60,060 nucleotides of DNA. It comes from Martelella mediterranea (GTDB lineage Bacteria; Pseudomonadota; Alphaproteobacteria; Rhizobiales; Rhizobiaceae). Positions within the stretch are counted from its first letter, which is position 1. The number at the start of each line of letters is the position of its first letter. The notes under the pieces were generated by a model. It did no database searches, was not told the origin of the DNA, and was given only the letters and a program-made list of their open reading frames with translations. This document shows, in pieces, positions 36,386 to 59,628 of this stretch. A program made the position numbers and the translations under genes. The DNA lies in assembly GCA_003001975.1 (NCBI GenBank), contig PVUG01000020.1, forward strand, positions 1-60,060, read 5' to 3'.

Positions 36386-36386
36386 T

Positions 36387-38140: not shown

Positions 38141-38147
38141 GGGACGG

Positions 38148-40802: not shown

Positions 40803-40832
40803 CGTCCCGTTCCCGTTGTCTTGTTCAGGATT

Positions 40833-41504: not shown

Positions 41505-41566
41505 GGTTGTTCTCTCCCTCTTTCGGCCCGGACAGCACCATGGCGCTGCCCCTGCCGTCAACCCGT

Positions 41567-42463: not shown

Positions 42464-42505
42464 GATGTTCCTTTCCCGCATATTGATCGGATGTTTTATC
42501 CTATA

Positions 42506-42520
42506 ACTGATACAATCAGT
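42506..42520. promoter_or_regulatory. Candidate GntR operator between the lyase and second TRAP operon
   Basis: ACTGATacaATCAGT is a perfect 6-3-6 palindrome in the 150-bp divergent intergenic region. A second short palindrome, ATCAGTGAT, lies at 42527-42535. The size and spacing fit a dimeric GntR-family site; the regulator at 40833-41504 is the natural candidate. Confidence 0.5.
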
Positions 42521-42620
42521 ATTTACATCAGTGATCGAAACCCGTAAAGTCTATTTTGCCCGCCGGGACATTTTGCTAAATGAGGGGCCCGGCTGACCTG
42601 ACGTTTAGGGAGGAATGATT

Positions 42621-43610
42621 TTGAAGAAGTCACTTATCGCCAAGGCGCTCCTGTGCTCGGTGTTCATCGCAACGCCCGCTCTGGCCCAGGATCCGATCGA
42701 GTTCAAAATGACCGTGCCGAGCGTGCCGACCGACCTGCACACCAAGGCGCTGCACGTTTTTGCCGAAGAAATCGAAAAGGAAATGCCCGGCGCGTTCGAC
42801 GTACAGATCTATGATTCGGGCTCGCTGTTCGGCCAGGGGGCCGACCTTGACGCCCTGCAGCGCGGCAATGCCGAAATGACCTATGTGTCCTATCAGCTGA
42901 TCGCCGACGCCCTGCCGCAATACGGTCTTCTGACCGCCGGCTACCTGTTCCAGAGCCCGGAACACTATCGCGCCTTCCTCGACAGCGATATTGGCGAAGA
43001 ATTCAAGCAGACCGTCTCCGACGAGATGGACATCCAGCTGCTCGACGCCTGCTATCTCGGCACCCGCCAGCTCAACCTGCGCAACGAGATGGACATCCAG
43101 ACCCCGGATGATCTGGCCGGCGTGAAACTGCGCATGCCAAGCTCGGATGCATGGCTGTTCCTCGGTCAGGCGCTTGGCGCCAATCCGACGCCGCTGCCCT
43201 TTGGCGAGGTCTATCTTGGCCTGCAGACAGGCACGATCGACGCCCAGGACAACCCGCTGCCGACCGTCGAGGCCGCCAAGTTCTACGAAGTCACCGACCA
43301 GATCACGCTGACCTCACACCTTGTCGACGCCATCAACTTCTCCGTCTCCAACATCTTCTGGGATGAGCTGGACGATGCGCAGAAAGAAGCCGTCACCAAG
43401 GCTGCAAAGGCTGCCTGCGACTGGAACAATGCCGAACGCGTGAAGGTCGAGCAGGACCTTGTCGCCTTTTTCGAGGGCGAGGGTCTGGCCGTCACCACGC
43501 CGGATGTCGATGCATTCCGCGCCCATGTTCAGGAGGCCTACATGAATTCGCCGCGCGCGGCGGACTGGCCCGAGGGCTGGGTCGAAAAAATCAACCAACT
43601 CGCCGAGTGA
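42621..43610 (+). CDS. TRAP transporter solute-binding protein (DctP family), second system
   Basis: A binding protein of about 330 residues with a Sec signal (LLCSVFIATPALAQ). DctP features are IEFKMTVPSVPTDLHTKALH, the ligand arginine in GVKLRMPSSD, and GLQTGTIDAQDNP. An ATG at 42615 directly abuts the GGGAGGA site, so the in-frame TTG at 42621, 6 nt from the site, is the more likely start. Sequence differs clearly from the first DctP, so the two systems have different ligands. Unit order is P-Q-M. Confidence 0.93.
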   Translation: MKKSLIAKALLCSVFIATPALAQDPIEFKMTVPSVPTDLHTKALHVFAEEIEKEMPGAFDVQIYDSGSLFGQGADLDALQRGNAEMTYVSYQLIADALPQYGLLTAGYLFQSPEHYRAFLDSDIGEEFKQTVSDEMDIQLLDACYLGTRQLNLRNEMDIQTPDDLAGVKLRMPSSDAWLFLGQALGANPTPLPFGEVYLGLQTGTIDAQDNPLPTVEAAKFYEVTDQITLTSHLVDAINFSVSNIFWDELDDAQKEAVTKAAKAACDWNNAERVKVEQDLVAFFEGEGLAVTTPDVDAFRAHVQEAYMNSPRAADWPEGWVEKINQLAE

Positions 43611-43616
43611 TCCGCC

Positions 43617-44123
43617 ATGCCGGCCCGAGACAATGCCAATGCCCTGCGCAAGTGGGGCATTTTTCTAAAGGCGGTCGCGGATACGATCGGCGCCCTGTTC
43701 TTTCTGTCGGCCTTCGTCGGCTTCATCATCCAGATCTTCTACCGCTACGTGATGAACCGGCCGCTGTTGTGGACCGAGGAATTCACCATGATCGCCTTCG
43801 TCTGGGCGGTCTTCTGGGCAGCCGCCTTCTGCGTGCCGATCCGCGAGCATGTCTCCTTCGATGTCGTCTATGACATCGTTCCGGAGCGCACGCGCCGGCT
43901 TTTCACCATGTTTTCGATGGTGATGCTGATCGCCGCCTTTGCCCTGCTGATCCCGTATACCTGGGACTATCTCGACTTTCTGACACGCAAGAAGAGCTCG
44001 GTTCTGCGCATCCCAATGAACTGGGTCTATGGCTGCTACCTGCTCTTCCTGTTCGGCTTCACCGTCCAGGCGATCTGGCGGCTCGTGCGTCTTTTCGGGC
44101 CCAAATGGACCGAAGAGATCTGA
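43617..44123 (+). CDS. TRAP transporter small permease (DctQ type), second system
   Basis: A 168-residue four-helix protein with the DctQ signature NRPLLWTEEFTMIAFVWAVFW followed by CVPIREHVSFDVV. It starts 6 bp after the binding-protein stop and lies 15 bp before the large permease gene. Confidence 0.93.
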   Translation: MPARDNANALRKWGIFLKAVADTIGALFFLSAFVGFIIQIFYRYVMNRPLLWTEEFTMIAFVWAVFWAAAFCVPIREHVSFDVVYDIVPERTRRLFTMFSMVMLIAAFALLIPYTWDYLDFLTRKKSSVLRIPMNWVYGCYLLFLFGFTVQAIWRLVRLFGPKWTEEI

Positions 44124-44138
44124 CGGGGGACTTTTGAC

Positions 44139-45443
44139 ATGGCATTTCTTTCCGAGCATGCGCTGATCGTCATGCTGGTCATCATGGTGACGATCACCAT
44201 CACCGGGCTGCCCTTCGGCATCTCGATGATCGTCGCCAGCATCTTCTATCTGTTCCTGGCCGGCCGCGATGTGGGGCTTGCCGCCGAAAACGTGCTGAAC
44301 GGCGTTTTCGGCAATTTCGTCGCGCTCGCCGTGCCGCTGTTCATCTTCGCCGCCAATGTGATGAACGAGGGCAAGATATCCGACAGGCTGCTCGATTTTG
44401 CGCTTGCCGTGGTCGGCCGGCTTCCCGGTGGGCTGGCACAGGTCAACATCTTCACCAGTCTGATCTTTTCCGGCATGAGCGGCTCGGCGATTTCCGATGC
44501 CGCAGGTGTGGGCAAGATCATCACCGAAATGATGATGAAGGAAAACCGTTATCCGCGCGGTTTCGCCGGCGCGCTGACCGCAGCGTCTGCCGTTGTCGGA
44601 CCGATCTTCCCGCCGTCGATCCCGATGGTGTTTTATGCGCTGATCTCATCGACGTCTGTCGGCGTGCTGTTCCTCGGCGGCGTCGTGCCGGCGATCCTGA
44701 TGTGCACCGTCATGGCGATCGCCGTCGGCATCATGGCCAAGGTGCGCGGTTTCCCGATCGAACAGGCCGTGCCCTTCCGCGCCCTGCCGCTGATCATCAT
44801 CCGCGCCTTTCCCGCATTGCTGATGCCGATCATCCTGCTCGGCGGCATCTATTCGGGTATTTTCACGCCCACCGAAGCGGCTGCCGTTTCAGCGCTCTAC
44901 GCCCTGCTTCTGGCTGTCTTCGCCTACCGGGTGCTCGGCCTGAAATCCTTCTGGAACGTGGTCGTTTCCAGCATGAAGACCACCGCCGTGGTCACCATGG
45001 TGCTGTGCGGTGCCTTCATCTTCAATTATGTGATCACCGTCGAGCGCGTTCCCCAGGCCGTCTTCCACCTGTTCGAGAGCTTCCAGCTTGAAACCTGGCA
45101 GTTCCTGATCCTGCTCAACATCCTGTACCTGCTGCTTGGCTGCATCCTCGACGTTTCGACGATCATGCTGGTGGTAACCCCGCTGTTCATTCCGACGGCG
45201 GCAGCGCTGGGCATCGACCTCAACCATCTCGGCGTGGTTCTCGTCTTCAACATGATGATCGGTCTGATCACCCCGCCCTACGGGATATTGCTGTTCATCA
45301 TCAAGGCGCTGAACGGGATACCCTTGGCGGAAATGATCCGGGAAACATGGTTCTTCATGGCCATCCTGATCACCATGCTTCTGGCGCTGACCTTCATTCC
45401 CGGCCTGACCTTGTGGCTGCCGCGCGCAGCGGGCATGCTGTGA
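44139..45443 (+). CDS. TRAP transporter large permease (DctM type), second system
   Basis: A 434-residue DctM subunit. It shows FTSLIFSGMSGSAISDAAGV with the first Na+/substrate hairpin, FPPSIPMVFYALISSTSVG, a second hairpin region LLGCILDVSTIMLVVTPLF, and ITPPYGILLFIIKALNG near the end. The SDAAG version of the first hairpin differs from the TTAAVG of the first system. A hairpin right after the stop probably terminates the transcript. Confidence 0.95.
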   Translation: MAFLSEHALIVMLVIMVTITITGLPFGISMIVASIFYLFLAGRDVGLAAENVLNGVFGNFVALAVPLFIFAANVMNEGKISDRLLDFALAVVGRLPGGLAQVNIFTSLIFSGMSGSAISDAAGVGKIITEMMMKENRYPRGFAGALTAASAVVGPIFPPSIPMVFYALISSTSVGVLFLGGVVPAILMCTVMAIAVGIMAKVRGFPIEQAVPFRALPLIIIRAFPALLMPIILLGGIYSGIFTPTEAAAVSALYALLLAVFAYRVLGLKSFWNVVVSSMKTTAVVTMVLCGAFIFNYVITVERVPQAVFHLFESFQLETWQFLILLNILYLLLGCILDVSTIMLVVTPLFIPTAAALGIDLNHLGVVLVFNMMIGLITPPYGILLFIIKALNGIPLAEMIRETWFFMAILITMLLALTFIPGLTLWLPRAAGML

Positions 45444-46196: not shown

Positions 46197-47009
46197 TCAT
46201 TCGTCCGTTTCGCCGGATGAGAACTGCCCGAGTTCATCGGCCTTCAAAAGCTCATCCTTGACGTTGTTGATATGGCGCGCCATGGCGTCGCGCGCTGCTT
46301 CGCTGTTTCGCATTTTCAGCGCTGCAACGATGGCGTAGTGATCGCCGATCCAGAGCGCCCGCAGGCGCGGTGCGTGAATATAGCGATGAACCCGCTGCCA
46401 CATGCGCGAGGAATCCCGCTGGTCCCACAACGCCTGCACCATCGACAGGATAATGGCGTTGCCGGTCATGTTGGCGATGGAGAGATGAAACTCCCGATCC
46501 CCCTTCTCGTTGACGGCCACTTCGTCGGTTTCGAGCTGCATGCGCTCGATACAGTCTTCCAGCTCCATGATATCGTAGCGCGTGGCGCGCTCGGCCGCGA
46601 ATGCTGCGGCACTCGTTTCCAGGGCAAGCCGCGCCTCCAGCAGCTCGAAAGGACCGGGACCGATATCGGTGTTGAGCGCATCGAAGGAGAGCGCGTTGAC
46701 ATGCGCCGGCAGCACGATGATGCCCGCCCGACCGCGCACCTCGACAATGCCGCGCATTTCAAGCGCGATGACCGCCTCGCGCACAACCGTGCGGCTGACT
46801 TCAAGCTGCTCGGCAAGTTCCCGTTCGGACGGCAGGTGCCAGTCGGGCGTCGCCTGGTTTTCCTCGATCATCCGGGCGATCCGCCGGGCAACGACCTGAT
46901 AGAGCCGTTTGGCGGCCAGCAGGCGCACCTTGCGGCCATCGCCAGCCCGTTCCTCCCCGTCCTTTCGGTTTTCCTGCACGGCGTTCGCTATCCTTGTTGT
47001 GGCAGCCAC
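46197..47009 (-). CDS. FadR-subfamily GntR regulator (FCD)
   Basis: A regulator of about 270 residues. The winged HTH reads YQVVARRIARMIEENQ, LPSERELAEQLEVSRTVVREA and VEVRGRAGIIV, followed by the FadR/FCD effector domain (FELLEARLALETSAAAFAAERAT, REFHLSIANMTGN, DHYAIVAAL, MARHINN). It starts with GTG at 47009, overlapping the preceding oxidoreductase gene by 22 bp, with no clear ribosome site, so translation is probably coupled. A palindrome of FadR-subfamily type lies upstream of the operon at 49310. Confidence 0.92.
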   Translation of the reverse strand: MAATTRIANAVQENRKDGEERAGDGRKVRLLAAKRLYQVVARRIARMIEENQATPDWHLPSERELAEQLEVSRTVVREAVIALEMRGIVEVRGRAGIIVLPAHVNALSFDALNTDIGPGPFELLEARLALETSAAAFAAERATRYDIMELEDCIERMQLETDEVAVNEKGDREFHLSIANMTGNAIILSMVQALWDQRDSSRMWQRVHRYIHAPRLRALWIGDHYAIVAALKMRNSEAARDAMARHINNVKDELLKADELGQFSSGETDE

Positions 47010-48061
47010 GAGCCATAGAGCGGGTGGTCTGCCGTAATCGGCATCGGCGTGGCGCGGCCGGTGCGATCGGAATGGTAGGCCGCCGTTACCAGTTCCAGAG
47101 AATTGCGGGCATCGTCAAGCGTGACGGGCGGTTCGCCGCCTTCGACAAGCGCGTGATAAAACAGTTCGAACTGGCGGGTATAGCCATCCTCGGTCTTCGG
47201 CATTTCGGCAAACGCCGCCTCCACCAGCCTCTGGTGAGCCTCGTCCCCGGCAGTAAACCGCCAGGGGTCACGGGCCACGGTATACGGCTCAAGAATGCTT
47301 TCCACCGTCACCTTCTCGAAGCAGAAGCGCAGGCGGGAAATCTCCTCATGCGAATTGAGTGTCATGGACAAGGCAGCCAGCGAACCATTTTTCATCCGCA
47401 CCGCCAGCGCCATCGTATCCTCGGTCTCAATCGGATTGTTGAGCGTAGCGCCATAGGCAAAGACCTCATCGCAGGGACCGTGAATGTAATTCAGCATGTC
47501 ATGGGCGTGAATGGCATGCCCCAGCAAACCGCCGCCAAGCTCGGTCTTCCACTTGCCGCGCCATTCGACGGCAAAATATTCAGGCGGCCGCCACCAATGC
47601 GTCTCGATCGTGGTCAGGAAGGCACGGCCCGTCAGACCAAGTTCGACAAGGCGCTTCAGTTTCTGCAGCCCCGCGCCGTAGCGATACTGAAAGATCGGCA
47701 TGATGGTCCTGCCCGTTGCCCTGGCGACATCGCTGATCGCATCGATATCGGCGACCGAGCCGAACAGCGGCTTTTCGCAGATCACATGCTTGCCGGCCTC
47801 AAGCGCCCGCCGGCTCAGATCGAAATGGCTGTGCGGCGGGGTGCAGATATCGATGATGTCGATATCGTCGCGGGCAAACAGCGTATCCACATCCTGCGTG
47901 TATTCCGGTATGCCGAATTCATCGCACAGCTTGCGCCCGCGGTCCTCATCCAGTGAGCACAGCACGGGCACATCGAAAAGCTCTGCATTCCATTTAAACC
48001 CTGTCAGATGCCGCTCGGCGATGCCGGCGCCAATGACGGCGACACGAAACTTCCTGGTCAT
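46988..48061 (-). CDS. Gfo/Idh/MocA-family oxidoreductase
   Basis: A 357-residue NAD(P)-dependent dehydrogenase. The Rossmann N-terminus is FRVAVIGAGIAERHLTGF, the cofactor/catalytic loop is VICEKPLFG (EKP motif), and the C-terminal alpha/beta domain includes the GGGLLGHAIHAHDMLNY segment, whose histidine is the usual catalytic base region. Family substrates are sugars, inositols or their acids. It lies 9 bp after the second such oxidoreductase gene. Confidence 0.93.
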   Translation of the reverse strand: MTRKFRVAVIGAGIAERHLTGFKWNAELFDVPVLCSLDEDRGRKLCDEFGIPEYTQDVDTLFARDDIDIIDICTPPHSHFDLSRRALEAGKHVICEKPLFGSVADIDAISDVARATGRTIMPIFQYRYGAGLQKLKRLVELGLTGRAFLTTIETHWWRPPEYFAVEWRGKWKTELGGGLLGHAIHAHDMLNYIHGPCDEVFAYGATLNNPIETEDTMALAVRMKNGSLAALSMTLNSHEEISRLRFCFEKVTVESILEPYTVARDPWRFTAGDEAHQRLVEAAFAEMPKTEDGYTRQFELFYHALVEGGEPPVTLDDARNSLELVTAAYHSDRTGRATPMPITADHPLYGSWLPQQG

Positions 48062-48070
48062 GATCGCCCC

Positions 48071-49090
48071 CTACCCTGCCCGGCGCGGGGAAATGTTCTC
48101 GGCCTTCGCCTGCGCTGCGAGCGACAGCCGGCAAACCTCGAAAACGTGATCCTGGCTCATCGCGGTTTCGGTGCGATCGCGCACATCGGCAATAAATTGA
48201 CCAAAATATTCAATCGGCTCAGCCGAGCAGTCGATATATTCGACGCCCGCCTGATTGACGAGGAACAGATGATCCTTGCCCGGTTTGCCGGCAATATCGA
48301 TATATTTGCGCAGTTCGATATAGCCATCGGTCCCCAGTATGGTCAGCCGGCCGTCTCCCCATGTCGACAGGCCTTCGGGCGTGAACCAGTCGACACGGAT
48401 ATAGCCGGAAGCATGATCGCTGCGCAGCAGCACTTCACCGAAATCCTGAAACGCCGCGTGCTGTTCGGTCCCGAAATTGCCGATGCTCGATGCGGTGACT
48501 TCGCCCGTCGCAGAGCCGGTGAAAAACAGGAACTGATCGATCTGGTGGGAGGCGATATCGACGATGATGCCGCCAAAGCGCTCCGGCTTGAAGAACCAGT
48601 CCGGGCGCTTCTCGAACTGTTTGCGGTGCGGCCCCATGCCGAGCGTCTGCACCACCGTGCCGATGGCCCCCTCACGGACCAGCTTGCCGGCCTTGACGGC
48701 AGAACGCACGCACAGACGTTCGGAAAAGCAGATCGAGAAAATCCGCCCGGTGCTTTCGACCGTGGCCTTGACGGCGGCAAGCTGCTCCGGCGTGGTCACA
48801 CCGGGCTTGTCGACCATCACATCCTTGCCCGCTTCCATGGCGCGGATCGCAAGATCGGCACGGTCGGCGGGGATGGCGGCGATGCAGATGACGTCGATAT
48901 CGGGATCAGCGAAAATCGCATCCCGGTCGATTACCGGAATGTCCGGATATGTCTCCCTGAAACCATCGACAAGAGCCGGAACGGAAGTCTTGTCACAATA
49001 GCCGACGAACTCTCCTCCGGCGGCAAGCAATCCCTTGACCTGATCGAAAATATGCCCGTGGTCGATCCCCACGACAGCAAATCGCAGCAT
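48071..49090 (-). CDS. Gfo/Idh/MocA-family oxidoreductase, first of operon
   Basis: A 339-residue enzyme starting MLRFAVVGIDHGHIFDQVKG. The usual GAG of the Rossmann turn is GIDHGH and the EKP motif is DKPGVT, as in an atypical branch of the family; the C-terminal domain keeps GGIIVDIASHQIDQFLFF. It heads the leftward unit of four genes (two oxidoreductases, regulator, VOC). The pair suggests sequential or epimerising oxidation of one polyol or sugar. Confidence 0.9.
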   Translation of the reverse strand: MLRFAVVGIDHGHIFDQVKGLLAAGGEFVGYCDKTSVPALVDGFRETYPDIPVIDRDAIFADPDIDVICIAAIPADRADLAIRAMEAGKDVMVDKPGVTTPEQLAAVKATVESTGRIFSICFSERLCVRSAVKAGKLVREGAIGTVVQTLGMGPHRKQFEKRPDWFFKPERFGGIIVDIASHQIDQFLFFTGSATGEVTASSIGNFGTEQHAAFQDFGEVLLRSDHASGYIRVDWFTPEGLSTWGDGRLTILGTDGYIELRKYIDIAGKPGKDHLFLVNQAGVEYIDCSAEPIEYFGQFIADVRDRTETAMSQDHVFEVCRLSLAAQAKAENISPRRAG

Positions 49091-49634: not shown

Positions 49635-50510
49635 ATGCCAAAACGCTCTCTCGAAGCCCGCATCTATGCAATCTATGAGACCCTGACGCCGGCGGAAAAG
49701 CGGCTTGCGGAGGTTCTGCTGCAATTCCAGATGGACCTGCCGAGCTATACGGCGGGCGAACTGGCGGAGAAGGCGCATGTTTCCAAGGCAACGGCCGCCC
49801 GCCTGATCCGCACACTTGGTTACAAGACCTATCCCGATGCCAAGCGGCAGATCCGCGAAGACCAGCACTGGGGATCGCCCCGCGCCGGGCTGGCCGATGC
49901 CAGCGAACCGGCCCCCGCCAAACTGTCGATCGCGACGACGATGCAGATGGATCTGAACAATATCCGCGCCACGGCGGAAGGCTTGCCGGAAAAGACGCTT
50001 GAGGAAGCGAGCAAGGCGATCATTGCGGCAAAGCGGGTCTGGATCATGGGGCTGCGCAGCGGCTATGGGCTGGCGCATCAGGCCGCACATTATTTGACGC
50101 TGATGAAAAGCGATGTGCATGTCATTCCGACCGGCGGCGCCAGCTACTCCCATGAGATCGCATCGATTACCAAGGGCGACGTTCTTCTGGTGATTGCCTT
50201 TCGCAGGCGTCCGCGCCTGTTGCCGACAATTCTGAAAGAGGCCCGCGCCGCCGGAGCGGTCACGATCCTGATTACCGATCTCAGCGCGGCCGAGAGCGCC
50301 AAGGCGGCCGAACATGTGCTGCGCTGCCATTGTCAGTCGCCCTCGCCGTTCAACTCCTTCGTCGCGGCGCTCACCATCATCAACTATCTGGCCTGGAGCG
50401 TGGCGACGGGCATGGGCGATGACAGCCTCAAGCGCTACGAGCGTATCGACTGGCTGGTGAAGCGGCTGGACGATGTTTCGACGCCGCAGACCAAGGGCGG
50501 CCCCGTCTGA
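49635..50510 (+). CDS. RpiR-family regulator with SIS domain
   Basis: A regulator of 291 residues. The N-terminal HTH_6 domain reads LEARIYAIYETLTPAEKRLAEVLL and AGELAEKAHVSKATAARLIRTLGY. The C-terminal SIS domain (about 125-260) includes RVWIMGLRSGYGLAHQAAHYL and TKGDVLLVIAFRRRP and would bind a phosphosugar or similar ligand. I use the ATG at 49635 because the HTH begins shortly after it; the frame is open to 49359 but those residues look non-coding. It converges with the racemase gene (18-bp gap) and is the likely regulator of the leftward cluster up to 57859. Confidence 0.92.
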   Translation: MPKRSLEARIYAIYETLTPAEKRLAEVLLQFQMDLPSYTAGELAEKAHVSKATAARLIRTLGYKTYPDAKRQIREDQHWGSPRAGLADASEPAPAKLSIATTMQMDLNNIRATAEGLPEKTLEEASKAIIAAKRVWIMGLRSGYGLAHQAAHYLTLMKSDVHVIPTGGASYSHEIASITKGDVLLVIAFRRRPRLLPTILKEARAAGAVTILITDLSAAESAKAAEHVLRCHCQSPSPFNSFVAALTIINYLAWSVATGMGDDSLKRYERIDWLVKRLDDVSTPQTKGGPV

Positions 50511-50528: not shown

Positions 50529-51242
50529 TTATTCCGCGGCCAGAAGCTGTGTCCGCGTCGGCGGCGACCACACGCCTGTCTTTGCGGTGGGCAGCCCGCA
50601 CCGCACCAGCGTCTCGGCCAGACCGACGGCGGCAGAAACGCCATCGACGACGGGAATGCCGTGACGCGCCTGAAGATCGCGGGCAAAGCCCGCCATGCCG
50701 GCGCATCCAAGCGCGACACCTTCCGCACCCGCCGCGATGCCCTTTTCGATGAAGGCCGAGATGGTCTCGAATGCCCCGCTTTTCGGGTCTTCCAGAGCCA
50801 GAACCGGAATGTCCGAAGCAAAGACCTTGCGGCAGCGCCGGTCAAAACCATAACGCAGGATATTGTCCTCGATCACCGGCGCCGAGCGTGACAGCGTCGT
50901 CACCACGCAGAAGCTGTGGGCCAGCAGCGTGACGGCGTGGAAGGACGCCTCGCCGATGCCGATCACCGGCCGGGTGGCGACAGCCCGCGCGGCATCGAGG
51001 CCGGTATCGTCGAAACAGGCAATCACATGCGCATCCGCCCCTTCGGCTTCCGCCGCTACAATCGCCTTCAAGAGGCCCGGCACGGCCAGCGCGCCGTCGA
51101 AAGGCCCCTCGATGGCATCCGGGCCGCACAGCGACTGGCGCCCCAGTATCTCCGTATCCCTGCCGACAACAGCTTTTGCCGCATCGGCGATGCGGGCCGT
51201 CATGGATGGCGTCGTATTGGGGTTGATGACTGCGATACGCAT
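50529..51242 (-). CDS. Asp/Glu/hydantoin racemase family protein
   Basis: A 237-residue racemase starting MRIAVINPNTTPSMT. The two catalytic cysteines of hydantoin racemases are present: C76 in ACFDDTGLDAAR and C180 in LGCAGM. Enzymes of this branch racemise 5-substituted hydantoins or allantoin; others act on aspartate, glutamate or maleate. It is the last gene of the seven-gene leftward cluster, 34 bp after the NMT1-like gene, so it probably acts on the imported compound. Confidence 0.9.
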   Translation of the reverse strand: MRIAVINPNTTPSMTARIADAAKAVVGRDTEILGRQSLCGPDAIEGPFDGALAVPGLLKAIVAAEAEGADAHVIACFDDTGLDAARAVATRPVIGIGEASFHAVTLLAHSFCVVTTLSRSAPVIEDNILRYGFDRRCRKVFASDIPVLALEDPKSGAFETISAFIEKGIAAGAEGVALGCAGMAGFARDLQARHGIPVVDGVSAAVGLAETLVRCGLPTAKTGVWSPPTRTQLLAAE

Positions 51243-51276
51243 CGTCTTGTGCTCTTTTGCGGTGGAAGGGGCTTTT

Positions 51277-52170
51277 TCAGAAGATGGTCGGGCGACCGTC
51301 GATCAGCGTGTCATAGGCAATCGGGGTCTCGGTGAGGTGGCCGTCGCAGATACCGCCCTGCCAGCGGGCATAGGCGTCGGGGTCGATGCGCGGCGTCGTC
51401 CACATGCCGTTGGCGCGGTATATATCGGTCAGTTTCACCAGAAGATCGGGGGCAAATTTCGGGAAGGTTTCGGCGAGAAAATCGCGATACCCTTCCGCCT
51501 CGCGGGCAAGTATCCAGTCCATGCCGCGCTTCAGCGCCCGGGCGAAGCGGGTATGCGTCTCCAGCCACACATCGTCTGCCTCACCCTCGGTGTAATAGAC
51601 GCTCCAGGGGATATTGCCGCCGGTTATCGACAGCGGCTGCACGACATACCCGCCGCCGGCCTCCTCGAGCGTCACCGCAGAGGGATAATCGATGACGAGG
51701 TAATCGCCCATGCCGCCGACGAACAGGTCGGTCAGCATCTTGCCGTCAAGATCCTGCACGAAGCCGACCGTGGCCGGGTCAATGCCCTTTTCGCGCAGCA
51801 TCATCTTGATGAACAGGCCGACACTGGCGCCATTGCTGCCCTTCATCGCGATCACCTTCCCGGCCAGCGCGCCCCAGGCGAAATCTTCCGGCCGTTCGCG
51901 GCCGATGATCGCCAGAGGCGCGCGCGCGGCAACCTGCGCAAAGGGGACATAGCGCTTGCCGCGACCGTGGAACATCGACGGCACCCAGATGCCGCCCAAC
52001 GCCGCCTGCGCCTTGCCGGAACCGATATCGTCGAGAACCCGGTCCCAGGGCGACGGCACCTCGGCGGTGACATTCAGCCCTTCATCGGCAAAGAAACCCT
52101 GCCATACGGCGACATATTCGGGCAGGTAGTTGAGGCTGTGCCCGGTGGCGGTAATGTGAAAATTCTGCAT
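51277..52170 (-). CDS. NMT1/THI5-like substrate-binding protein without signal peptide
   Basis: A 297-residue protein of the NMT1/SsuA-type periplasmic-binding fold: HSLNYLPEYVAVWQGFFADEGLNV at the N-terminus, then GIWVPSMFHGRGKRYVPFAQ and GKVIAMKGSNGAS. Relatives are binding proteins for aliphatic sulfonates, taurine or thiamine precursors, or the HMP-P synthase THI5. There is no signal peptide upstream: the fold starts at residue 3 after MQNFHITATG, and AGAGAAG precedes the ATG. It may be a cytoplasmic enzyme or ligand-binding protein rather than a transporter subunit. It lies 29 bp after the ATPase gene. Confidence 0.85.
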   Translation of the reverse strand: MQNFHITATGHSLNYLPEYVAVWQGFFADEGLNVTAEVPSPWDRVLDDIGSGKAQAALGGIWVPSMFHGRGKRYVPFAQVAARAPLAIIGRERPEDFAWGALAGKVIAMKGSNGASVGLFIKMMLREKGIDPATVGFVQDLDGKMLTDLFVGGMGDYLVIDYPSAVTLEEAGGGYVVQPLSITGGNIPWSVYYTEGEADDVWLETHTRFARALKRGMDWILAREAEGYRDFLAETFPKFAPDLLVKLTDIYRANGMWTTPRIDPDAYARWQGGICDGHLTETPIAYDTLIDGRPTIF

Positions 52171-52199
52171 CGTCTTCTCTTTGTTATTTCATGCGCCGG

Positions 52200-53348
52200 T
52201 TATTTCAGGCGCTGGCCGTTTTCGACATCGAACAGAAGGACGTCGTCAGCGTCGTAATCCAGCGAGCACGACTGGCCGATTTCCATGCGCAGATGGCCGG
52301 AGACACGCACGAACACCAGCCCGGTTTCCAGCAGGCGGCCGTCGTCTTCCTCATCGCCGGTCATCAGCCGGCAGCCGATCACGGTTTCCGCGCCAAGGCG
52401 CTCGACCACCGAGACACGGGCCGGAAGCCGGCCCTTGCCCTGGCCAAGCAGCGACAGTTTTTCCGGGCGGATGCCGAAGGTGACTTCCCGGCGCTTCGGC
52501 AGCGGGGCGGGAAGCTCGGCGACAAGCTTTCCCGACAGTTTCAGCGTGTCGTCACGGATCGATGCCGGGACAAGGTTCATCGGCGGCGAGCCGACGAACT
52601 GGGCAACGAAGGTGTTGGCCGGCTGGTCGTAGATTTCGTCCGGCGTTCCGACCTGCTGCACCACGCCCTTGTTCATGATGATGATGCGGCTTGCCATGGT
52701 CATCGCCTCGACCTGGTCATGCGTCACATAGACGAATGTCTTGCCGACCTTGTGATGCAGGGCGGAGATCTCGGAGCGCATCTGGGTGCGCAGCTTGGCA
52801 TCGAGGTTGGAAAGCGGCTCGTCGAGAAGATAGAGCGAGGGGTTGCGCACCAGCGCACGCGCCAGCGCCACGCGCTGACGCTGGCCGCCGGAGAGGCTCG
52901 CCGGCCGGCGATCAAGCAGCGGCTCCAGCTCAAGCTGGCGGGCAATCTTCAAGGTCCGCTCGGCGATATCGGCGCGCTTCATCAGCCGCGCCCGGGCGAT
53001 CATGTTGACGACCGGCAGATGATACCATTTGCGGAAGGCATCCATGATCAGCGGAAAGGCGATATTCTCGCGCACGGTGGCATGCGGGTAGAGCGCATAG
53101 GTCTGGAACACGAAGGCGACGCCACGCTTCTTCGGCTGCCAGTCATTGGCAACCTCGCCGTTAAACAGCAGGTCGCCGGAGGAGATATCGCTGAGGCCTG
53201 CAATCATCCGCAACAGCGTGGACTTGCCGCAGCCGGAGGGGCCGAGAAGAACCAGAAACTCGCCGTCATGAATTTCGGCATCGAAGGTCTTGATAACGGT
53301 GTTGTCGCCAAATGTCTTGGAAACGTTCCTGAAGGTCAAAGCGGGCAT
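52200..53348 (-). CDS. ABC importer ATPase (MalK/UgpC type), RpiR cluster
   Basis: A 382-residue ATPase. Walker A is GPSGCGKST, signature LSGGQRQR, Walker B LYLLDEPLSNLDAKLR, and the switch is VTHDQVEAMTMA. A roughly 17-residue insert (FRKWYHLPVVNMIARAR) follows the Q-loop region, unlike the ATPase at 30197. The C-terminal TOBE-type domain includes FGIRPEKLSLL. It starts 5 bp after the permease stop and completes the importer. Confidence 0.94.
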   Translation of the reverse strand: MPALTFRNVSKTFGDNTVIKTFDAEIHDGEFLVLLGPSGCGKSTLLRMIAGLSDISSGDLLFNGEVANDWQPKKRGVAFVFQTYALYPHATVRENIAFPLIMDAFRKWYHLPVVNMIARARLMKRADIAERTLKIARQLELEPLLDRRPASLSGGQRQRVALARALVRNPSLYLLDEPLSNLDAKLRTQMRSEISALHHKVGKTFVYVTHDQVEAMTMASRIIIMNKGVVQQVGTPDEIYDQPANTFVAQFVGSPPMNLVPASIRDDTLKLSGKLVAELPAPLPKRREVTFGIRPEKLSLLGQGKGRLPARVSVVERLGAETVIGCRLMTGDEEDDGRLLETGLVFVRVSGHLRMEIGQSCSLDYDADDVLLFDVENGQRLK

Positions 53349-53353
53349 GAGCG

Positions 53354-54187
53354 TTATCCCTTGACGGCGCCGGAGGTGAGACCGGCCACGATTTTACGCT
53401 GGATAAGAAGAAAGAAGACGATGGCCGGAATGCTGAACACCAGCGCGGCCCCCATGACGGCGGACATCGGGGTTTCATACTGCCCGACGAAGGAGGCTAG
53501 CCCGACGCTTGCCGTCCACTTGTCGCGGTCCATGAGGAAGGTGGAGGCGAACAGGAATTCGTTCCACCCGGCAAAGAAGGACACGACGGCGGCTGCGGCC
53601 ATGCTGGGCATGATCAGCGGCAGGATGATCATCGTCAGAATGCTGAAGCGCGGGCAATTGTCGATGATCGCCGATTCCTCGATTTCGTAGGGAACCGCAT
53701 CCATCGCGCCCTTGAGTACGAAACAGGCGACCGGCAGCGAAAAACCGACATTGGCGAGAACCAGACCCGCAAGGCTGTTCAACAGGCCGAAGGTGATGAA
53801 CATCGCATAAAGCGGCACCAGAATGAGCGCCTCGGGCACGACCTGGGTGACGAAAAGGAGGAAGCCGACCAGCCCCTTGCCGTGAAAGCGGAAGCGGCTC
53901 AGCGCATAGCCCGCCAGCGAGCCGAGCGTCAGGCTGAGCACCGTGCCGCCGGCGGCAACCAGAAGCGTGTTGAACAGCCACAGCCCGATCGGGACCTGAT
54001 TGAGATCGTTGAAAAGCTGCGGGAAATGGCGCAACTGCAGCCAGATCACCTGACCGGAACCGTAAAGTTCGGAATTTTCCGACAGCGCGGTGGCGGCCAT
54101 CCAGTAGACGGGGAACCCGGCCAGCACGACGAGAACGCCGATCAGCAGGTAGCGCAAAAGCCGGAGCGTGAGTTTTTTCGTCGTCAT
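53354..54187 (-). CDS. ABC importer permease (MalG type), RpiR cluster
   Basis: A 277-residue six-helix permease. It starts MTTKKLTLRLLRYLLIGVL and has the EAA loop in the region EIEESAIIDNCPRFSILTMI, a degenerate version of EAAxIDG. Its ATG at 54187 overlaps the TGA of the preceding permease by one base, so translation is coupled. The open frame continues upstream in this phase but overlaps the real upstream gene. Confidence 0.93.
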   Translation of the reverse strand: MTTKKLTLRLLRYLLIGVLVVLAGFPVYWMAATALSENSELYGSGQVIWLQLRHFPQLFNDLNQVPIGLWLFNTLLVAAGGTVLSLTLGSLAGYALSRFRFHGKGLVGFLLFVTQVVPEALILVPLYAMFITFGLLNSLAGLVLANVGFSLPVACFVLKGAMDAVPYEIEESAIIDNCPRFSILTMIILPLIMPSMAAAAVVSFFAGWNEFLFASTFLMDRDKWTASVGLASFVGQYETPMSAVMGAALVFSIPAIVFFLLIQRKIVAGLTSGAVKG

Positions 54188-55092
54188 CAGCGCGACATCC
54201 ACTTCATGCGGCGTTGTTCGAAAAAGTAATGGATCCCGGCAATCGCCAGCGCCAGAACCAGGCCGACCGCGCCATAGGCGCTTGCAAGACCAAGCTGCTG
54301 GTTCTCGAAGGCGACCTGCTTGATCTTGACCACCAGCGTGCTGGTGGAGCCGACCGGCCCGCCGCCGGTAAGCAGGTAGATGATATCGAAACGGCGGATC
54401 GACCAGACGCAGACCAGAAGCGCTGCCAGCTGAATGGCGGGCCGGATATGCGGCAGGGTGACCATGCGGAAGCTGCTCAGCCCGTCGGCGCCATCGATTG
54501 CCGCGGCCTCGCGCACTTCGCCGGGAACCGACTGAAGCGCTGCCAACACGACCAGCATGACGAAGGGCGCCACCTGCCAGACCGTCACCGCCAGCACCGA
54601 GGCAAGCGCTAGATCTGTGCTGGTGAGCCATGCGAACCGGCCAAGGCCGAGCTCTTCGGTGATCCGGTTGAAGATGCCGGAACGGTCGTTATACATCCAC
54701 AGCCAGATCAGCGAGGCGGCGACATTCGGCACGGCCCAGCCGAACAGGAGAATGCCGCGGGCAATGGCCCGCCCCCTGAACGGCCGGTCGATTGCCAGTG
54801 CGGAAATCACGCCCAGCGACACGCCGAAGATGACGGCCAGAGCCGCATAAATCAGCGTAACGCGGATTGACTGGAAAAACGACGGATCGCCGAGAAGCCG
54901 CTCGTAGTTACCAAGGCCGATGAACCGGCCGTGGTTGGGATTGATGATCCGCGTCTTGGTGAGGCTCATATACATCTGCCGCGCCAGCGGCCAGAACATG
55001 AACACCACCAGATAGATCATGGGCGGAAGAATGAAGCCGTAGGCAGTCAGGCGGGTTATGCTTTTTTTCAGTTTCGGGCCTGTCATGGCCAT
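54187..55092 (-). CDS. ABC importer permease (MalF type), RpiR cluster
   Basis: A 301-residue six-helix permease starting MAMTGPKLKKSITRLTAYGF. The EAA loop is EVREAAAIDGADGLSSFRM. It follows the binding-protein gene by 17 bp and is coupled to the second permease by a TGATG overlap. Confidence 0.94.
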   Translation of the reverse strand: MAMTGPKLKKSITRLTAYGFILPPMIYLVVFMFWPLARQMYMSLTKTRIINPNHGRFIGLGNYERLLGDPSFFQSIRVTLIYAALAVIFGVSLGVISALAIDRPFRGRAIARGILLFGWAVPNVAASLIWLWMYNDRSGIFNRITEELGLGRFAWLTSTDLALASVLAVTVWQVAPFVMLVVLAALQSVPGEVREAAAIDGADGLSSFRMVTLPHIRPAIQLAALLVCVWSIRRFDIIYLLTGGGPVGSTSTLVVKIKQVAFENQQLGLASAYGAVGLVLALAIAGIHYFFEQRRMKWMSR

Positions 55093-55109
55093 TCCTCCGC
55101 CAGCGGGGA

Positions 55110-56366
55110 TTAAAACTCGCGATCGACCTCAGCCTGGGCTTCGGCAAGCGCATCGGCAGGAGACGTGTCGGTCAGGATCGACTTTTCGACAGCCTGCATC
55201 ACGTAGCGCATGATCTGCGGGGTCTCGACTTCATAGCCCGGAATGAGCGTGCTGCGCGAGTGCTTGGCAAGCTCGGCAAACTCGTTCGCCCAGGGGTTGG
55301 CGGCGGCGAATTCGGCCGTGACCGGGACGTCAGTTGCCAGCGCATCCGGGCCGGAAGCGGCACGCAGCGACTGCTGACCTTCCGGGCTGACCAGCCATGT
55401 CAGGAAGTCGATGGCTTCCTCCTGATGGTCGCTGTGGGCGCTGACGCCGAGGAAAATCTGCTGATGGGCGCCGGGATGGGCAAACGGCATGGCAGCCGCA
55501 CCGATATCAGCGCTCGGAAGTGCGCCGCCGGAAGCGATGTTCAGCGTGCCGCCGGAATTGTCGATCGAGAAGGCGACCTGCTTTTCCTTGAAGCGCGTGC
55601 GCTGCGTCGGCATGCTGTCGCCGACCGGGATGATGCCGGAGGCGTAGGTGTCCTTGAAGGCCTGAACGGCTTCAACGGCTTCCGGCGTGTCGATCGTCAG
55701 ATTGCCCTCGTCATCGACCCAGTTGACGCCATAGCCATAGGCCCAGTTCTGGAAGTCCATCGACCAGCCGCTGAAATCGTTGATCTGGTGACGGGCGGTG
55801 AAACCGATAACGCCAGGGGTCTTTTCAGACGCTTCCTTTGCCGAGGCAATCAGTTCCTGCACGGTGGTCGGAACCTTGACGCCGAGCGCTTCGGTCACCT
55901 CCTTGTTGAAGATCAGCGCATAGGCGGCGCGCTGCCATGCGATGCCGTAACGCACATCATCGACCACGCCGTTCTCGTTGGTGGTGTTGAGGTCGACACC
56001 CTCAACGGCATCGCCGACATCCACCAGAAAGCCGGCATCGGCCATGGTGAAGAACACGCCTTCCTGCATGATGGCGATATCGGGCCCCTGGCCGGCGCCC
56101 ATCTCGGTGGTCAGCTTGTCGGCGTATTCCTTCGACGGAATGGCCTCCTGCTCAAGGACGACATCCGGATTGACCTCCTCGTATTTCTTGACGGCGGCCC
56201 AGAGGTTCTGGCCGCGCAGGGCGTCGAGCCACTGCGAGTTGGAAATCACCAGGGTGACCTTCTCACCGGACTGGGCGAAACTCGTTCCGGCACTGCCGAG
56301 CGTGGCGGCAAGACCGACGAAAACGGCGGAGGCCAGAAGCCTGCGGCGGTGTATCTGCTTGAACAT
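55110..56366 (-). CDS. Sugar-type ABC substrate-binding protein, RpiR cluster
   Basis: A 418-residue family 1 binding protein. The N-terminus MFKQIHRRRLLASAVFVGLA ends at SFAQS, a Sec- or weak Tat-type signal. Mature features include VTLVISNSQWLDALRGQNLW, GPDIAIMQEG and the C-terminal FLTWLVSPEGQQSLRAASG helix. AAGGAG precedes the ATG at 56366. The family usually binds sugars or sugar-like molecules; with a creatinase-like neighbour the ligand may be something else. Confidence 0.93.
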   Translation of the reverse strand: MFKQIHRRRLLASAVFVGLAATLGSAGTSFAQSGEKVTLVISNSQWLDALRGQNLWAAVKKYEEVNPDVVLEQEAIPSKEYADKLTTEMGAGQGPDIAIMQEGVFFTMADAGFLVDVGDAVEGVDLNTTNENGVVDDVRYGIAWQRAAYALIFNKEVTEALGVKVPTTVQELIASAKEASEKTPGVIGFTARHQINDFSGWSMDFQNWAYGYGVNWVDDEGNLTIDTPEAVEAVQAFKDTYASGIIPVGDSMPTQRTRFKEKQVAFSIDNSGGTLNIASGGALPSADIGAAAMPFAHPGAHQQIFLGVSAHSDHQEEAIDFLTWLVSPEGQQSLRAASGPDALATDVPVTAEFAAANPWANEFAELAKHSRSTLIPGYEVETPQIMRYVMQAVEKSILTDTSPADALAEAQAEVDREF

Positions 56367-56422
56367 GTCGTTCTCCTTCTGAGGTTTTGTTTTTTTATTC
56401 TGCGTTGAGGTTTGAGGGCAGG

Positions 56423-57859
56423 TTAACCCGCTTTGACGCGATGCGGCGCGAGCGGGGTATGGCAGCTCAGGTTTTCTGCACCGTCTGCTGTCACCAGATA
56501 ACAATCGCCGACATTGCAGCCCGCCACTTCCGGCTCGAGCCACTGGGCGTGGAGAACGAAGGTCATTCCCTCTTCCAGCTTGTCGTGATTGTTCGACTGG
56601 ATATTGTAATTCCTGAATTTCTGCATCGACACCGAATGGCCGACATTGGGGTTATGCGGCCCGAGCGTTGCCGGATAGACATGCATCAGCTTGCGGCCCT
56701 GGCGCTCCCAGTCTTCATCCGGCACGTGCCTGCGCGGGATCAACCGCGGCTTGCCGTCGTCTTCGGAAACCCAGTTATAGGGCATAGTGCGGCTATCGGC
56801 CGAATTCAGATAGCCGCGCTCGAGATAGGGTTCGAAGGAGGCGTTCGCCACTTCGGAAACGAGGTTGCCCGGCCGGACCTTTGCCGCGGCTTTCTCCACG
56901 CCCTCAACGCACATTTGCAGAACCTCTTCCTGCTTGTCCGTGATGTCGCCGACGGCGATCATGCGGGCGATCTGGGCGGTGTAGCCCTGATAGATGACGG
57001 CGGAAATATAAAGATTGATCAGGTCGCCATTGCGCACGACATGGCCGTAGGGCTTGCCGCAATGGGTGCCGAAACGGTTGATGCCGATCTGGTAGCCGTC
57101 GCCGGTCTCCCCGCCGCGCGCCATCTGGGCATAGGTGAAGGCGGCATAGATTTCGTAATCGGTCACGCCCGGCCTGATCACATGATAGGCCGCCTGAATG
57201 CCGATATCGGCAAGCTGGGCGGCAGCGCGCACGACCGCCTGTTCACGCGGGGAACGGACCTTCTGCATCCGGTCGATGATCGATGCGCATTCGGCAAAGG
57301 CGCTTTTGGGCAGGCGGGTTTTCAGGCCGTTCCAGTAAGGCGTCGATGTCGCATCGCCGATCAGGCCGACCTGCGCGACGGAAAAGCCCTCGCGCTCGAG
57401 AAAGGCACCGACCGCCTCGACCACCTTGTCGACCGTATTGCCCGGCCGGTTATAGGTCTCCCGGCCCCAGGTGCCGACCTGCCAGATATCCTCGACGAGA
57501 ACCGGCTCGCCGGCCGGCGGCAGCAGCACCGAACTGCTGAAGATCGAAAACATCGTCAACGGCTTGTCGTCATCCGTCGGCACGACAAGAACGCCCTCGC
57601 GCGCCCAGTCGCAGATATAACGCAGATAGGAATTGGAGACCTTGTAGGACCCGATGGAATCGGCATGGATGAGGATCACGTCATGACCGGCAACCACGGC
57701 CTCCCGTCGGATGCGGCGCAGCCGGTCGACAAACTCGCTCTCCGGCAGCGGGCCGACAGGCTCGAACGCGAAGGACGGCTGAAAGCCATCCAGAAGACGT
57801 TCGAACCGATTGTCGGGCGCAAAGCCTGACGAGGTGAGGGAAGCATTTATGGCAGTCAT
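56423..57859 (-). CDS. Creatinase-like M24 (pita-bread fold) protein lacking metal ligands
   Basis: A 478-residue protein with an N-terminal creatinase/prolidase domain (about 40-200) and a C-terminal pita-bread domain (about 205-465). Of the five metal ligands of M24 aminopeptidases, four positions appear replaced: Asp to Y284 and Q296 (in NLYISAVIYQGYTAQIAR), Glu to H437 (GMTFVLH), Glu to G451 (NVGDCYLVT); H408 (VGHSVS) remains. This recalls creatinase, which is metal-free and uses histidine; H266 (FGTHCGKP) is a possible equivalent of its catalytic histidine, but the creatinase glutamates do not align clearly. So an amidinohydrolase or amidase is plausible. It is the first gene of the leftward cluster. 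Confidence 0.85.
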   Translation of the reverse strand: MTAINASLTSSGFAPDNRFERLLDGFQPSFAFEPVGPLPESEFVDRLRRIRREAVVAGHDVILIHADSIGSYKVSNSYLRYICDWAREGVLVVPTDDDKPLTMFSIFSSSVLLPPAGEPVLVEDIWQVGTWGRETYNRPGNTVDKVVEAVGAFLEREGFSVAQVGLIGDATSTPYWNGLKTRLPKSAFAECASIIDRMQKVRSPREQAVVRAAAQLADIGIQAAYHVIRPGVTDYEIYAAFTYAQMARGGETGDGYQIGINRFGTHCGKPYGHVVRNGDLINLYISAVIYQGYTAQIARMIAVGDITDKQEEVLQMCVEGVEKAAAKVRPGNLVSEVANASFEPYLERGYLNSADSRTMPYNWVSEDDGKPRLIPRRHVPDEDWERQGRKLMHVYPATLGPHNPNVGHSVSMQKFRNYNIQSNNHDKLEEGMTFVLHAQWLEPEVAGCNVGDCYLVTADGAENLSCHTPLAPHRVKAG

Positions 57860-58437: not shown

Positions 58438-59628
58438 TCAGCCCCGCTGATCATAGGGGAGATCGCTATCGCCGGGAACAAGTTCGGATGGCACGCGATC
58501 AATCGAGTAGGCCACCGTGTTGAGCCGACGCACCTCGGAATGGTCTGGAACGAACTCGAATTTCTCAGGATAAAATACGCAGATGTTGCTCCCGTCAGAA
58601 ACTGAACTACGGTACCGGACGCCGTCGAAGCCTCTTCGCAACAGAACTTCCGCCAGCAATTGGGTCAGCAAATAGGGTGTGCGCTCGTCTGGCGTTACTG
58701 GCATACTCATAAGCCTGTCAAAAGCCTGGATCGTTTCGTACAACGACAGCCGAGCGTCTGATGTGGCAAAAATCGAAATGTCGGGATTGAAATCAGCCAA
58801 GCGAATAGCTTCGCAACTTCTGAAGCCACCAATGGAAACGTGATGGCCAGGATGCGGCCTGATCTCGGCAACAGCTGTGTATTGCTCGGAGGCCAGATAC
58901 ATTACCGAGACACCTGCGCGGTTAAGACGACCGAACCCTGCCTTGGGTGGTGGTGGCGCCCCAATCTCTTTATCCTGCCATGGAATCCTGATGATCTGTG
59001 TTTCCCAGCCAGCCAGCGGAAATCGCCTGAAAGTCCCGGACTCTCCCAAGCGGGCTCGATACCAAATCTCACCTTGCGGAAGCTGCATTTCGATATCGTC
59101 CAGAAATGGCGCGATCATCTCCTCAAGCCCTGGCTCGACCTGATGAAAATTCTGAGTTAGCAGTCGATGTTGTAATTCCACGAACGCAGCCGGTTTGGTT
59201 CGAGAGATCGCGAAGTTCATCATGCGAACACCGTCATTGAACCCGGCGTAGACGGCAATGCCCTTGTCCCAGTCGGGGTACACGGGCCAATTCAGCCACT
59301 CGTCGAAGTCATCAACAAAGAGGTTCGATTTCGGCGGTACCACTATGGGGTTCTCTGCGGAGAGCAGCGACATGACGCTATCTCCTCCCCAATGTGGATT
59401 GTACTGATGTTCGTCGTAGTGAAAGCGGATGAGCGCTCGAAGGAGCATCACGAGGTGCTCGCGGTTTTCTGGATTTCGGACATCCACGTCGTCGCGAGCA
59501 CAGAGGGCACATCGACCCTTCGTGCAATCGTCTAAGATGATTTTTTTTACGCTTGGATGACGAGCGCAATCTAAGCAAATACTCGTAGGGGCTACCTCTT
59601 CCGGATCGAAATCTAGCTCGTTTTCCAT
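58438..59628 (-). CDS. RES-domain protein with N-terminal cysteine cluster
   Basis: A 396-residue protein. The N-terminus has a possible zinc site: C18-LD-C21, C35 and C40-AL-C43. Residues about 60-185 have no motif I recognise beyond acidic and aromatic patches and may correspond to the N-terminal domain seen in HEPN/RES conflict proteins. Residues about 190-370 form a RES domain (EIWYRARLGESG, AGVSVMYLASEQYTAVAEIRP, LLAEVLLRRGFDGVRYRSS). RES proteins are NAD+-degrading toxins, usually paired with an Xre-type antitoxin; none is adjacent. Base composition is lower in GC than the neighbours, suggesting transfer. The IS21 element lies just upstream. Confidence 0.85.
   Translation of the reverse strand: MENELDFDPEEVAPTSICLDCARHPSVKKIILDDCTKGRCALCARDDVDVRNPENREHLVMLLRALIRFHYDEHQYNPHWGGDSVMSLLSAENPIVVPPKSNLFVDDFDEWLNWPVYPDWDKGIAVYAGFNDGVRMMNFAISRTKPAAFVELQHRLLTQNFHQVEPGLEEMIAPFLDDIEMQLPQGEIWYRARLGESGTFRRFPLAGWETQIIRIPWQDKEIGAPPPPKAGFGRLNRAGVSVMYLASEQYTAVAEIRPHPGHHVSIGGFRSCEAIRLADFNPDISIFATSDARLSLYETIQAFDRLMSMPVTPDERTPYLLTQLLAEVLLRRGFDGVRYRSSVSDGSNICVFYPEKFEFVPDHSEVRRLNTVAYSIDRVPSELVPGDSDLPYDQRG

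Follow-up and report, generated by a model that had tools for sequence, protein, structure and literature searches.

What compound does an operon serve when its central gene encodes a relative of peptidases in which the fold's metal site is gone? The question is raised by a 60,060-nucleotide stretch of Martelella mediterranea DNA (hereafter the window), contig 20 of a 4.63-Mb genome, in which seven co-directional minus-strand genes run from 57859 to 50529. In that order they encode an M24-fold protein, the solute-binding protein (SBP), MalF-type permease, MalG-type permease and ATPase of an ATP-binding cassette (ABC) importer, an NMT1-fold protein and a racemase. We found that this gene set is a real conserved unit centred on the M24-fold protein. 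Judged by its residues, that protein fails the tests for both a peptidase and a creatinase. Tentatively, and with rather less than even confidence, we propose that the operon imports a neutral ureido or cyclic-amide carboxylate, which the M24-fold protein would hydrolyse without metal.

The altered metal site of the M24-fold protein

Profile alignment to prolidases placed the five metal ligands of the M24 fold, Asp, Asp, His, Glu and Glu, at Y284, Q296, H408, H437 and G451, so that one ligand, the His (H408), is kept and Tyr, Gln, His and Gly stand in place of the other four. Four changed ligands had been noticed in the initial annotation, and the replacements proved to be fixed in all 43 rows of an alignment of 42 genes from alphaproteobacteria, a single genome from a different class of the same phylum, a plasmid whose record names Roseateles, and two Firmicutes. 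One gene stands in this alignment twice (L010 and L057, same genome), L012 is truncated, L075 is taken from the start of its match, and L038, whose gene lies in pieces, was excluded. N76, W85, R87, K269, Y271, H273 and H393 are fixed in 43/43 rows as well, and 106 positions are fixed across the alignment with at most one gap each. That these include the five former ligand positions together with K269, Y271, H273, R87 and W85 argues for selection on a site without metal ligands.

The boundary of this family is sharp. At least 60% identity was found in 61 plasmid records, the Firmicute members stand at 51–52%, and 50 non-members fall at 20–29% among the matches listed (60 of 382 records, taken at even steps). 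Relatives at 90–92% identity occur in three Martelella genomes. In the M24 tree, a fully supported branch separates the 15 rows outside the window's own lineage (lineage A, with at least 72% identity of the M24 protein in the loci aligned) from the rest; the root is unsure, the creatinase row being very long. An AlphaFold2 model of the protein has a mean predicted local distance difference test (pLDDT) score of 76, with values below 50 at residues 108–139, and Foldseek matched it to prolidases and creatinases (1wy2, E 1.1e-22, template modelling score by target 0.84).

Annotated records name the relatives "Xaa-Pro peptidase family protein", and the best sequence-profile matches are indeed M24B enzymes of the same fold, Xaa-Pro dipeptidase and aminopeptidase P (1wy2, 5cdl). 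Even so, the reading implied by automatic annotation, that of a conventional Xaa-Pro metallopeptidase supplied with peptides by the importer, is scarcely credible, being contradicted by the absence of four of the five metal ligands from all 43 rows. The best NCBIfam prolidase model reaches 62 bits against a cut-off of 630, the His of the prolidase VHE motif, which we take to be a proton shuttle, is replaced by F415, and about 48 extra residues precede the GH motif relative to 5cdl. The scores of the protein against NCBIfam models of two M24-fold non-peptidases, the dimethylsulfoniopropionate lyase DddP and the ectoine hydrolase DoeA, are far below the cut-offs; DddP, an iron-binding enzyme, retains its metal ligands (PMC4108388).

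Creatinase (creatine amidinohydrolase, an M24B-fold enzyme; PDB 1chm, 7yto and 1kp0) offers the closer comparison on some points. Both proteins have the pita-bread fold without metal ligands and a QxGxNxxGxH pattern, and in their N-terminal parts an Arg and an aromatic residue coincide. With a Klebsiella-plasmid creatinase (598 bits to 1chm) as the yardstick, residues 256–266 match FQSGLNTDGAH without gaps and CDWAR (83–87) matches CSFGR. R87 and W85, the latter aromatic but not Phe, thus occupy the places of Arg64 and Phe62 in 43/43 rows, and we take these two creatinase residues to contact the substrate from the neighbouring subunit. H266 sits in the gapless local alignment at His232, presumably catalytic in creatinase, and is His in 40 and Ala in 3 of the 43 rows; this match replaced Y271 or C267, which gapped profile alignments had put at that position. 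H408 corresponds to His324 by way of the prolidase alignments. On the other side, Glu262, Glu358 and His376 of creatinase are replaced by A/S298, H437 and G451 in every row, identity in structural matches is 17–19%, the stretch before the GH motif is longer, and the His232 position is not strictly kept. We rejected a creatinase identity on the three replaced residues, and it is very improbable that the operon encodes a genuine creatinase acting on creatine or some other guanidino substrate. The label "creatinase-like" in the initial annotation thus holds for the fold, the loss of the metal site and a handful of common positions, and is not supported beyond them. Its option of a guanidino substrate falls too, since the counterparts of Glu262 and Glu358, which we assume to hold the guanidinium group, are Ala/Ser and His. 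Loss of these two residues with retention of the Arg64 equivalent suggests that the substrate would be a carboxylate with a neutral head group, for example a ureido acid or a cyclic amide.

Conservation and spread of the gene set

Loci were fetched by the M24 protein alone, and 47 were read: 27 of lineage A, 16 of a sister lineage (with flanks), one in Shinella, two in Firmicutes, and one in a further genome, G1188. The lineage A sample consists of 25 of 27 genome loci (L035 and L037 excluded) and two plasmid records, L041 and L045, which are the two read out of 12 lineage A plasmid records matched. Counts over the 27 loci retain L038 (M24, SBP and MalF) and L033 (NMT1 and racemase), where these genes match in pieces and are either decayed copies or sequencing errors.

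The M24 gene and all four importer genes are present in 27/27 lineage A loci. An NMT1 gene at 50% identity or more accompanies them in 26, and the remaining locus, L023, has a 33% homologue at the same place. The racemase was found in 21 of the 27, in operon position in 20; the copy in L022 lies 4.4 kb further on, and a contig end in L029 cuts off both the racemase region and the RpiR-type regulator gene. The regulator is present in 25/27, the other two (L024 and L029) losing that region at contig ends. Joint conservation of the M24 and racemase genes with the importer in related genomes had been set beforehand as the test by which the joint pathway could be refuted, and the association held, save for the racemase positions weighed below. 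Two adjacent Gfo/Idh/MocA oxidoreductase genes, divergent from the regulator and on its other side from the operon, were considered as part of the unit and rejected: they have no match at 50% identity in the 27 lineage A loci, and none at E 1e-20.

Record titles of lineage A cover Rhizobiales and Rhodobacterales. The M24 family was found in 5/397 genomes of an order sample (E 1e-60), 3/385 of a class sample (E 1e-100) and 2/398 of a phylum sample (E 1e-70), the window's own genome being included each time, in 2/394 genomes of the order of an Oscillospiraceae genome (starting genome included), and in 61 of 72,556 plasmid records searched with the Shinella protein (E 1e-60). Its members are few and scattered, and the gene set has the look of an accessory catabolic operon. 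A guess that it belongs to the Agrobacterium att region was dropped, as the 115–160 kb stretch of pAtC58 has no member among its annotated genes and the C58 copy lies at 409 kb. Judged by titles and the opening of abstracts, we found no publication on this gene combination in the open-access literature, which does not prove it unpublished.

Partner proteins and transporter exchange

The layout described in the initial annotation, seven co-directional and tightly spaced genes, was confirmed in order and strand, the RpiR gene being convergent with the operon, 18 bases from the racemase stop and outside the co-directional set. From M24 to racemase, the intergenic distances are 56, 17, -1, 5, 29 and 34 bases, the MalF and MalG genes overlapping by 1 base. 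The SBP start was refined on its signal sequence.

Table 1. Features of the operon and its surroundings in the window
Feature	Position	Strand	Domain evidence
M24-fold ("pita-bread") protein, 478 aa, metal ligands replaced	56423..57859	-	PF00557 (Peptidase_M24), 102 bits
SBP of CUT1 (sugar-type) ABC importer, with signal sequence	55110..56366	-	PF01547 (SBP_bac_1), 130 bits
MalF/UgpA-type permease	54187..55092	-	PF00528 (BPD_transp_1); nearest NCBIfam models GlcT and UgpA, both below cut-offs
MalG/UgpE-type permease	53354..54187	-	PF00528 (BPD_transp_1); nearest NCBIfam model MalG, below cut-off
MalK/UgpC-type ATPase	52200..53348	-	PF00005 (ABC_tran), PF17912 (OB_MalK), PF08402 (TOBE_2)
NMT1/THI5-fold protein, signal-less, predicted cytosolic	51277..52170	-	PF09084 (NMT1), 46.7 bits
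Asp/Glu/hydantoin racemase family protein	50529..51242	-	PF01177 (Asp_Glu_race), 200 bits
RpiR-type regulator (HTH_6 and SIS)	49635..50510	+	PF01418, PF01380
Two adjacent Gfo/Idh/MocA oxidoreductase genes	46988..49090		
Two tripartite ATP-independent periplasmic (TRAP) transporter sets flanking an alpha-L-rhamnosidase gene and a dihydrodipicolinate synthase (DHDPS)-family gene	35399..45443		
RES-domain protein	58438..59628		PF08808, 60 bits

A sugar-type importer with its own binding protein had likewise been proposed, and the CUT1 domain set is complete: SBP_bac_1, two MalFG-type permeases and a MalK-type ATPase with OB and TOBE domains. The ATPase scores 416.7 bits against the UgpC subfamily model (cut-off 432), and no NCBIfam transporter model reaches its cut-off among the matches listed (the best 25 for the first permease and the ATPase).

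Related M24 genes keep other company. In the sister lineage, an iron/polyamine-type SBP is present in 16/16 loci, and a flavin reductase in 13 (all but L044, L056 and L075). Loci with an amino-acid-type SBP, the permease belonging to it and a gene of the TIM-barrel sugar isomerase family number 12/16; neither a CUT1 SBP nor RpiR was seen in any. The M24 relative of Shinella PSBB067 (61%) has as neighbours two NMT1 proteins without a signal and an importer of the amino-acid type, to whose permease the amino-acid-type permease of the sister lineage is 50% identical. In the two Firmicutes GltS-like symporter genes lie upstream of M24, immediately before it in L061 and in divergent orientation in L062, and genes for an amidohydrolase and an HD protein come after it; HD relatives (24–30%) are found near the lineage A operons of L017, L021, L033, L034 and L038. 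This change of transporter class from lineage to lineage (amino-acid-type, iron/polyamine-type, GltS-like) argues against an ordinary sugar as the substrate. Dipeptide-type ABC permeases near seven loci were set aside, their clusters being loose (35% identity); such systems are common in rhizobia.

The nearest solved structures to the racemase are the allantoin racemases of Klebsiella (KpAllR, 3qvj, E 3.8e-51) and Pseudomonas (5lfd, E 2.3e-43), with which it shares a full-length match and the two catalytic cysteines. The pair C76 and C180, already pointed out in the initial annotation, is fixed in 20/20 full-length rows, the window's included and two short rows excluded. The catalytic pair of KpAllR is Cys79 and Cys184 (PMC12661438). 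Unlike the setting of an allantoin racemase, the window's operon has no allantoinase. A racemase paralogue (53%) on contig 9 of the same genome, beside genes for an ABC importer and glycyl-tRNA synthetase, gave no clue.

The NMT1-fold protein had been described as lacking a signal sequence, and we agree: 21/21 aligned rows, the window's among them, begin at the mature fold, with starts chosen to match the window's. The ATPase stop and NMT1 start are 2 to 53 bases apart in 26 lineage A loci (249 bases in L023), and gaps of at most 53 bases leave no room for a signal sequence. Its model (pLDDT 92) matches 3qsl, Thi5, and thiamin-precursor and sulfonate binding proteins. It thereby resembles the hydroxymethylpyrimidine (HMP) synthase THI5 and the desulfinase DszB, cytosolic enzymes with a binding-protein fold and no signal, and neither identity survived. 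The position of the THI5 Lys, which we take to be the pyridoxal phosphate (PLP) lysine, is G59; G59 and V63 are invariant in 21/21 rows, and the test for the PLP lysine and His66 failed. The nucleophilic cysteine of DszB, an enzyme of which a Cys27 mutant is among the structure entries matched, has no conserved counterpart, the sole cysteine of the window's protein, Cys275, not being conserved.

A plasmid search with the NMT1 protein matched 18 records at E 1e-15, and the 13 best all carry M24, 12 with NMT1 matches of at least 60% over 98–99% of the query and Shinella with 32%; nine of the 13 form a near-identical Rhizobium set, leaving about four independent cases. On a Roseomonas mucosa plasmid (L077:6001-7198), an NMT1 tail fragment (57% over 24% of the query) lies with RpiR beside an IS3 transposase, a probable remnant of the operon. 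Separately, L025 has a second signal-less NMT1 gene (44%) beside a second RpiR gene (44%) at L025:18467-20308, with no second M24 gene in the stretch read.

Around the operon, the TRAP transporter stretch of Table 1 looks like a separate sugar-utilisation region. The RES-domain protein is encoded upstream of the operon; domains of this type frequently serve as the toxin in toxin-antitoxin pairs.

Candidate substrates and rival explanations

A guanidino, hydantoin or ureide compound, or such a compound joined to a sugar, had been proposed as the substrate. The guanidino option has fallen on the residues, and the ureide option gained from ureide-type enzymes encoded beside M24 in three lineages. 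In the Firmicute locus L061, M24 is followed co-directionally by genes for a lactamase-fold protein (Lactamase_B_2), an HD protein, an amidohydrolase and a nitroreductase, and then by three ureide-type genes: allantoinase (436.9 bits, cut-off 357.85), a member of the allantoate amidohydrolase subfamily (433 bits, cut-off 399) and ureidoglycine aminohydrolase (320 bits, cut-off 200). The last has a single match in the 2.5 Mb of that genome (G1043), inside the operon. In L070, a gene annotated as allantoicase/ureidoglycine aminohydrolase, a Pfam cupin with 32% identity to the L061 gene, overlaps the end of the gene for flavin reductase that follows M24. In L022, RpiR is followed by an allantoate amidohydrolase gene (542 bits, cut-off 479), an ArgE/DapE-family gene and the racemase. 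L044, L074 and L075 have amidase-family genes next to or close to M24. We regard the ureide-type neighbours, present at three of 47 loci, as a thin hint.

Our preferred reading, in which a neutral ureido or cyclic-amide carboxylate is taken up and then hydrolysed without metal, could work as follows. The CUT1-type importer would bring in a small polar nitrogenous compound bearing a carboxylate, and the racemase, to go by its family, may equilibrate an acidic stereocentre that adjoins a cyclic or ureido amide. The M24-fold protein would then hydrolyse the neutral ureido or cyclic-amide C-N bond, probably with the invariant K269-x-Y271-G-H273 motif, H408 and H437 as its catalytic set and with R87 and W85, placed like Arg64 and Phe62 of creatinase, possibly reaching the substrate from the neighbouring subunit. 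The cytosolic NMT1-fold protein may be a second enzyme or a binding partner, and RpiR presumably controls the unit. That this amounts to a kind of M24 catalysis still undescribed, a metal-independent amidohydrolase acting on a neutral ureido acid or cyclic amide (creatine's carbonyl analogue) and sharing a new pathway with an enzyme of binding-protein fold in the cytosol, we consider rather unlikely.

Several observations weigh against the preferred reading. Where the racemase region is visible, the gene is missing from operon position in 6/26 lineage A loci, many of which are close kin, and neither NMT1 nor racemase occurs in any of the 16 sister-lineage loci. The importer is nearest to sugar and glycerol-phosphate systems by NCBIfam, and sugar phosphates are the usual ligands of SIS-type RpiR regulators. 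Three members (L029, L032 and L039) have Ala in place of H266, so that no catalytic base is established; L032 and L039 are also without the racemase, and L029 is cut off there. None of the few ureide-type genes lies in the window's operon, ureidoglycine aminohydrolase has no match in the window's genome, whose one Hydantoinase_B is encoded elsewhere, and in G332 and G749 the ureidoglycine gene lies away from M24. The M20 genes of L061 and L022 fall short of the stricter AllC model (286 and 273 of 598 bits) and may therefore encode different carbamoylases. The HyuA/HyuB neighbours of M24 in G1188 were set aside as evidence, since that 3.4-Mb genome holds 58 Hydantoinase_B (HyuB) matches, an unusual number; the adjoining D-glutamate cyclase-like gene was set aside likewise. 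Finally, 5/18 NMT1 plasmid records are not among the M24 carriers, namely the Roseomonas fragment and four at 25–29%, one of which, in Vescimonas, adjoins its own ABC permease and ATPase genes. The AllC scores and these NMT1 matches without M24 lowered our confidence in the reading slightly and raised the two alternatives below by a smaller step each.

One of these alternatives, doubtful in our estimate, is that the importer takes up a conjugate of a sugar or amino sugar, either an N-glycoside or an acylated amino sugar, whose amide or N-glycosidic link the M24 protein would cut, leaving the racemase to act on the freed amino acid. The CUT1 importer and RpiR fit this, as do an SMP-30/gluconolactonase-family gene beside the operon in L017, L021 and L038 and the sugar isomerase-family gene of the sister lineage; relatives nonetheless use amino-acid-type, iron/polyamine-type or GltS-like transporters instead, and no further gene family recurs beside most of the 33 loci clustered, not all clusters being annotated. 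Improbable to a greater degree is a non-catalytic M24 pseudoenzyme, a ligand-binding or scaffold protein and perhaps the partner of the NMT1-fold protein. Such a role would suit the loss of four of five metal ligands, the imperfectly kept H266 and the binding-protein fold of the NMT1 partner, but not the 106 fixed positions, many of them polar, nor the retention of M24 alongside four different transporter sets, nor a sister lineage that lacks the NMT1 partner in 16/16 loci.

Databases label the M24 family described here as Xaa-Pro peptidases despite its lost metal ligands. To our knowledge, creatinase has so far been the sole kind of metal-free hydrolase on the M24 fold; if this family is a metal-free hydrolase, it would be a second kind, and the signal-less NMT1 partner would be a further case of a binding-protein fold used in the cytosol. 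A nitrogen-rich compound would then be a common food of rhizobia, agrobacteria and marine Rhodobacterales, with the M24 gene found in Oscillospiraceae as well.

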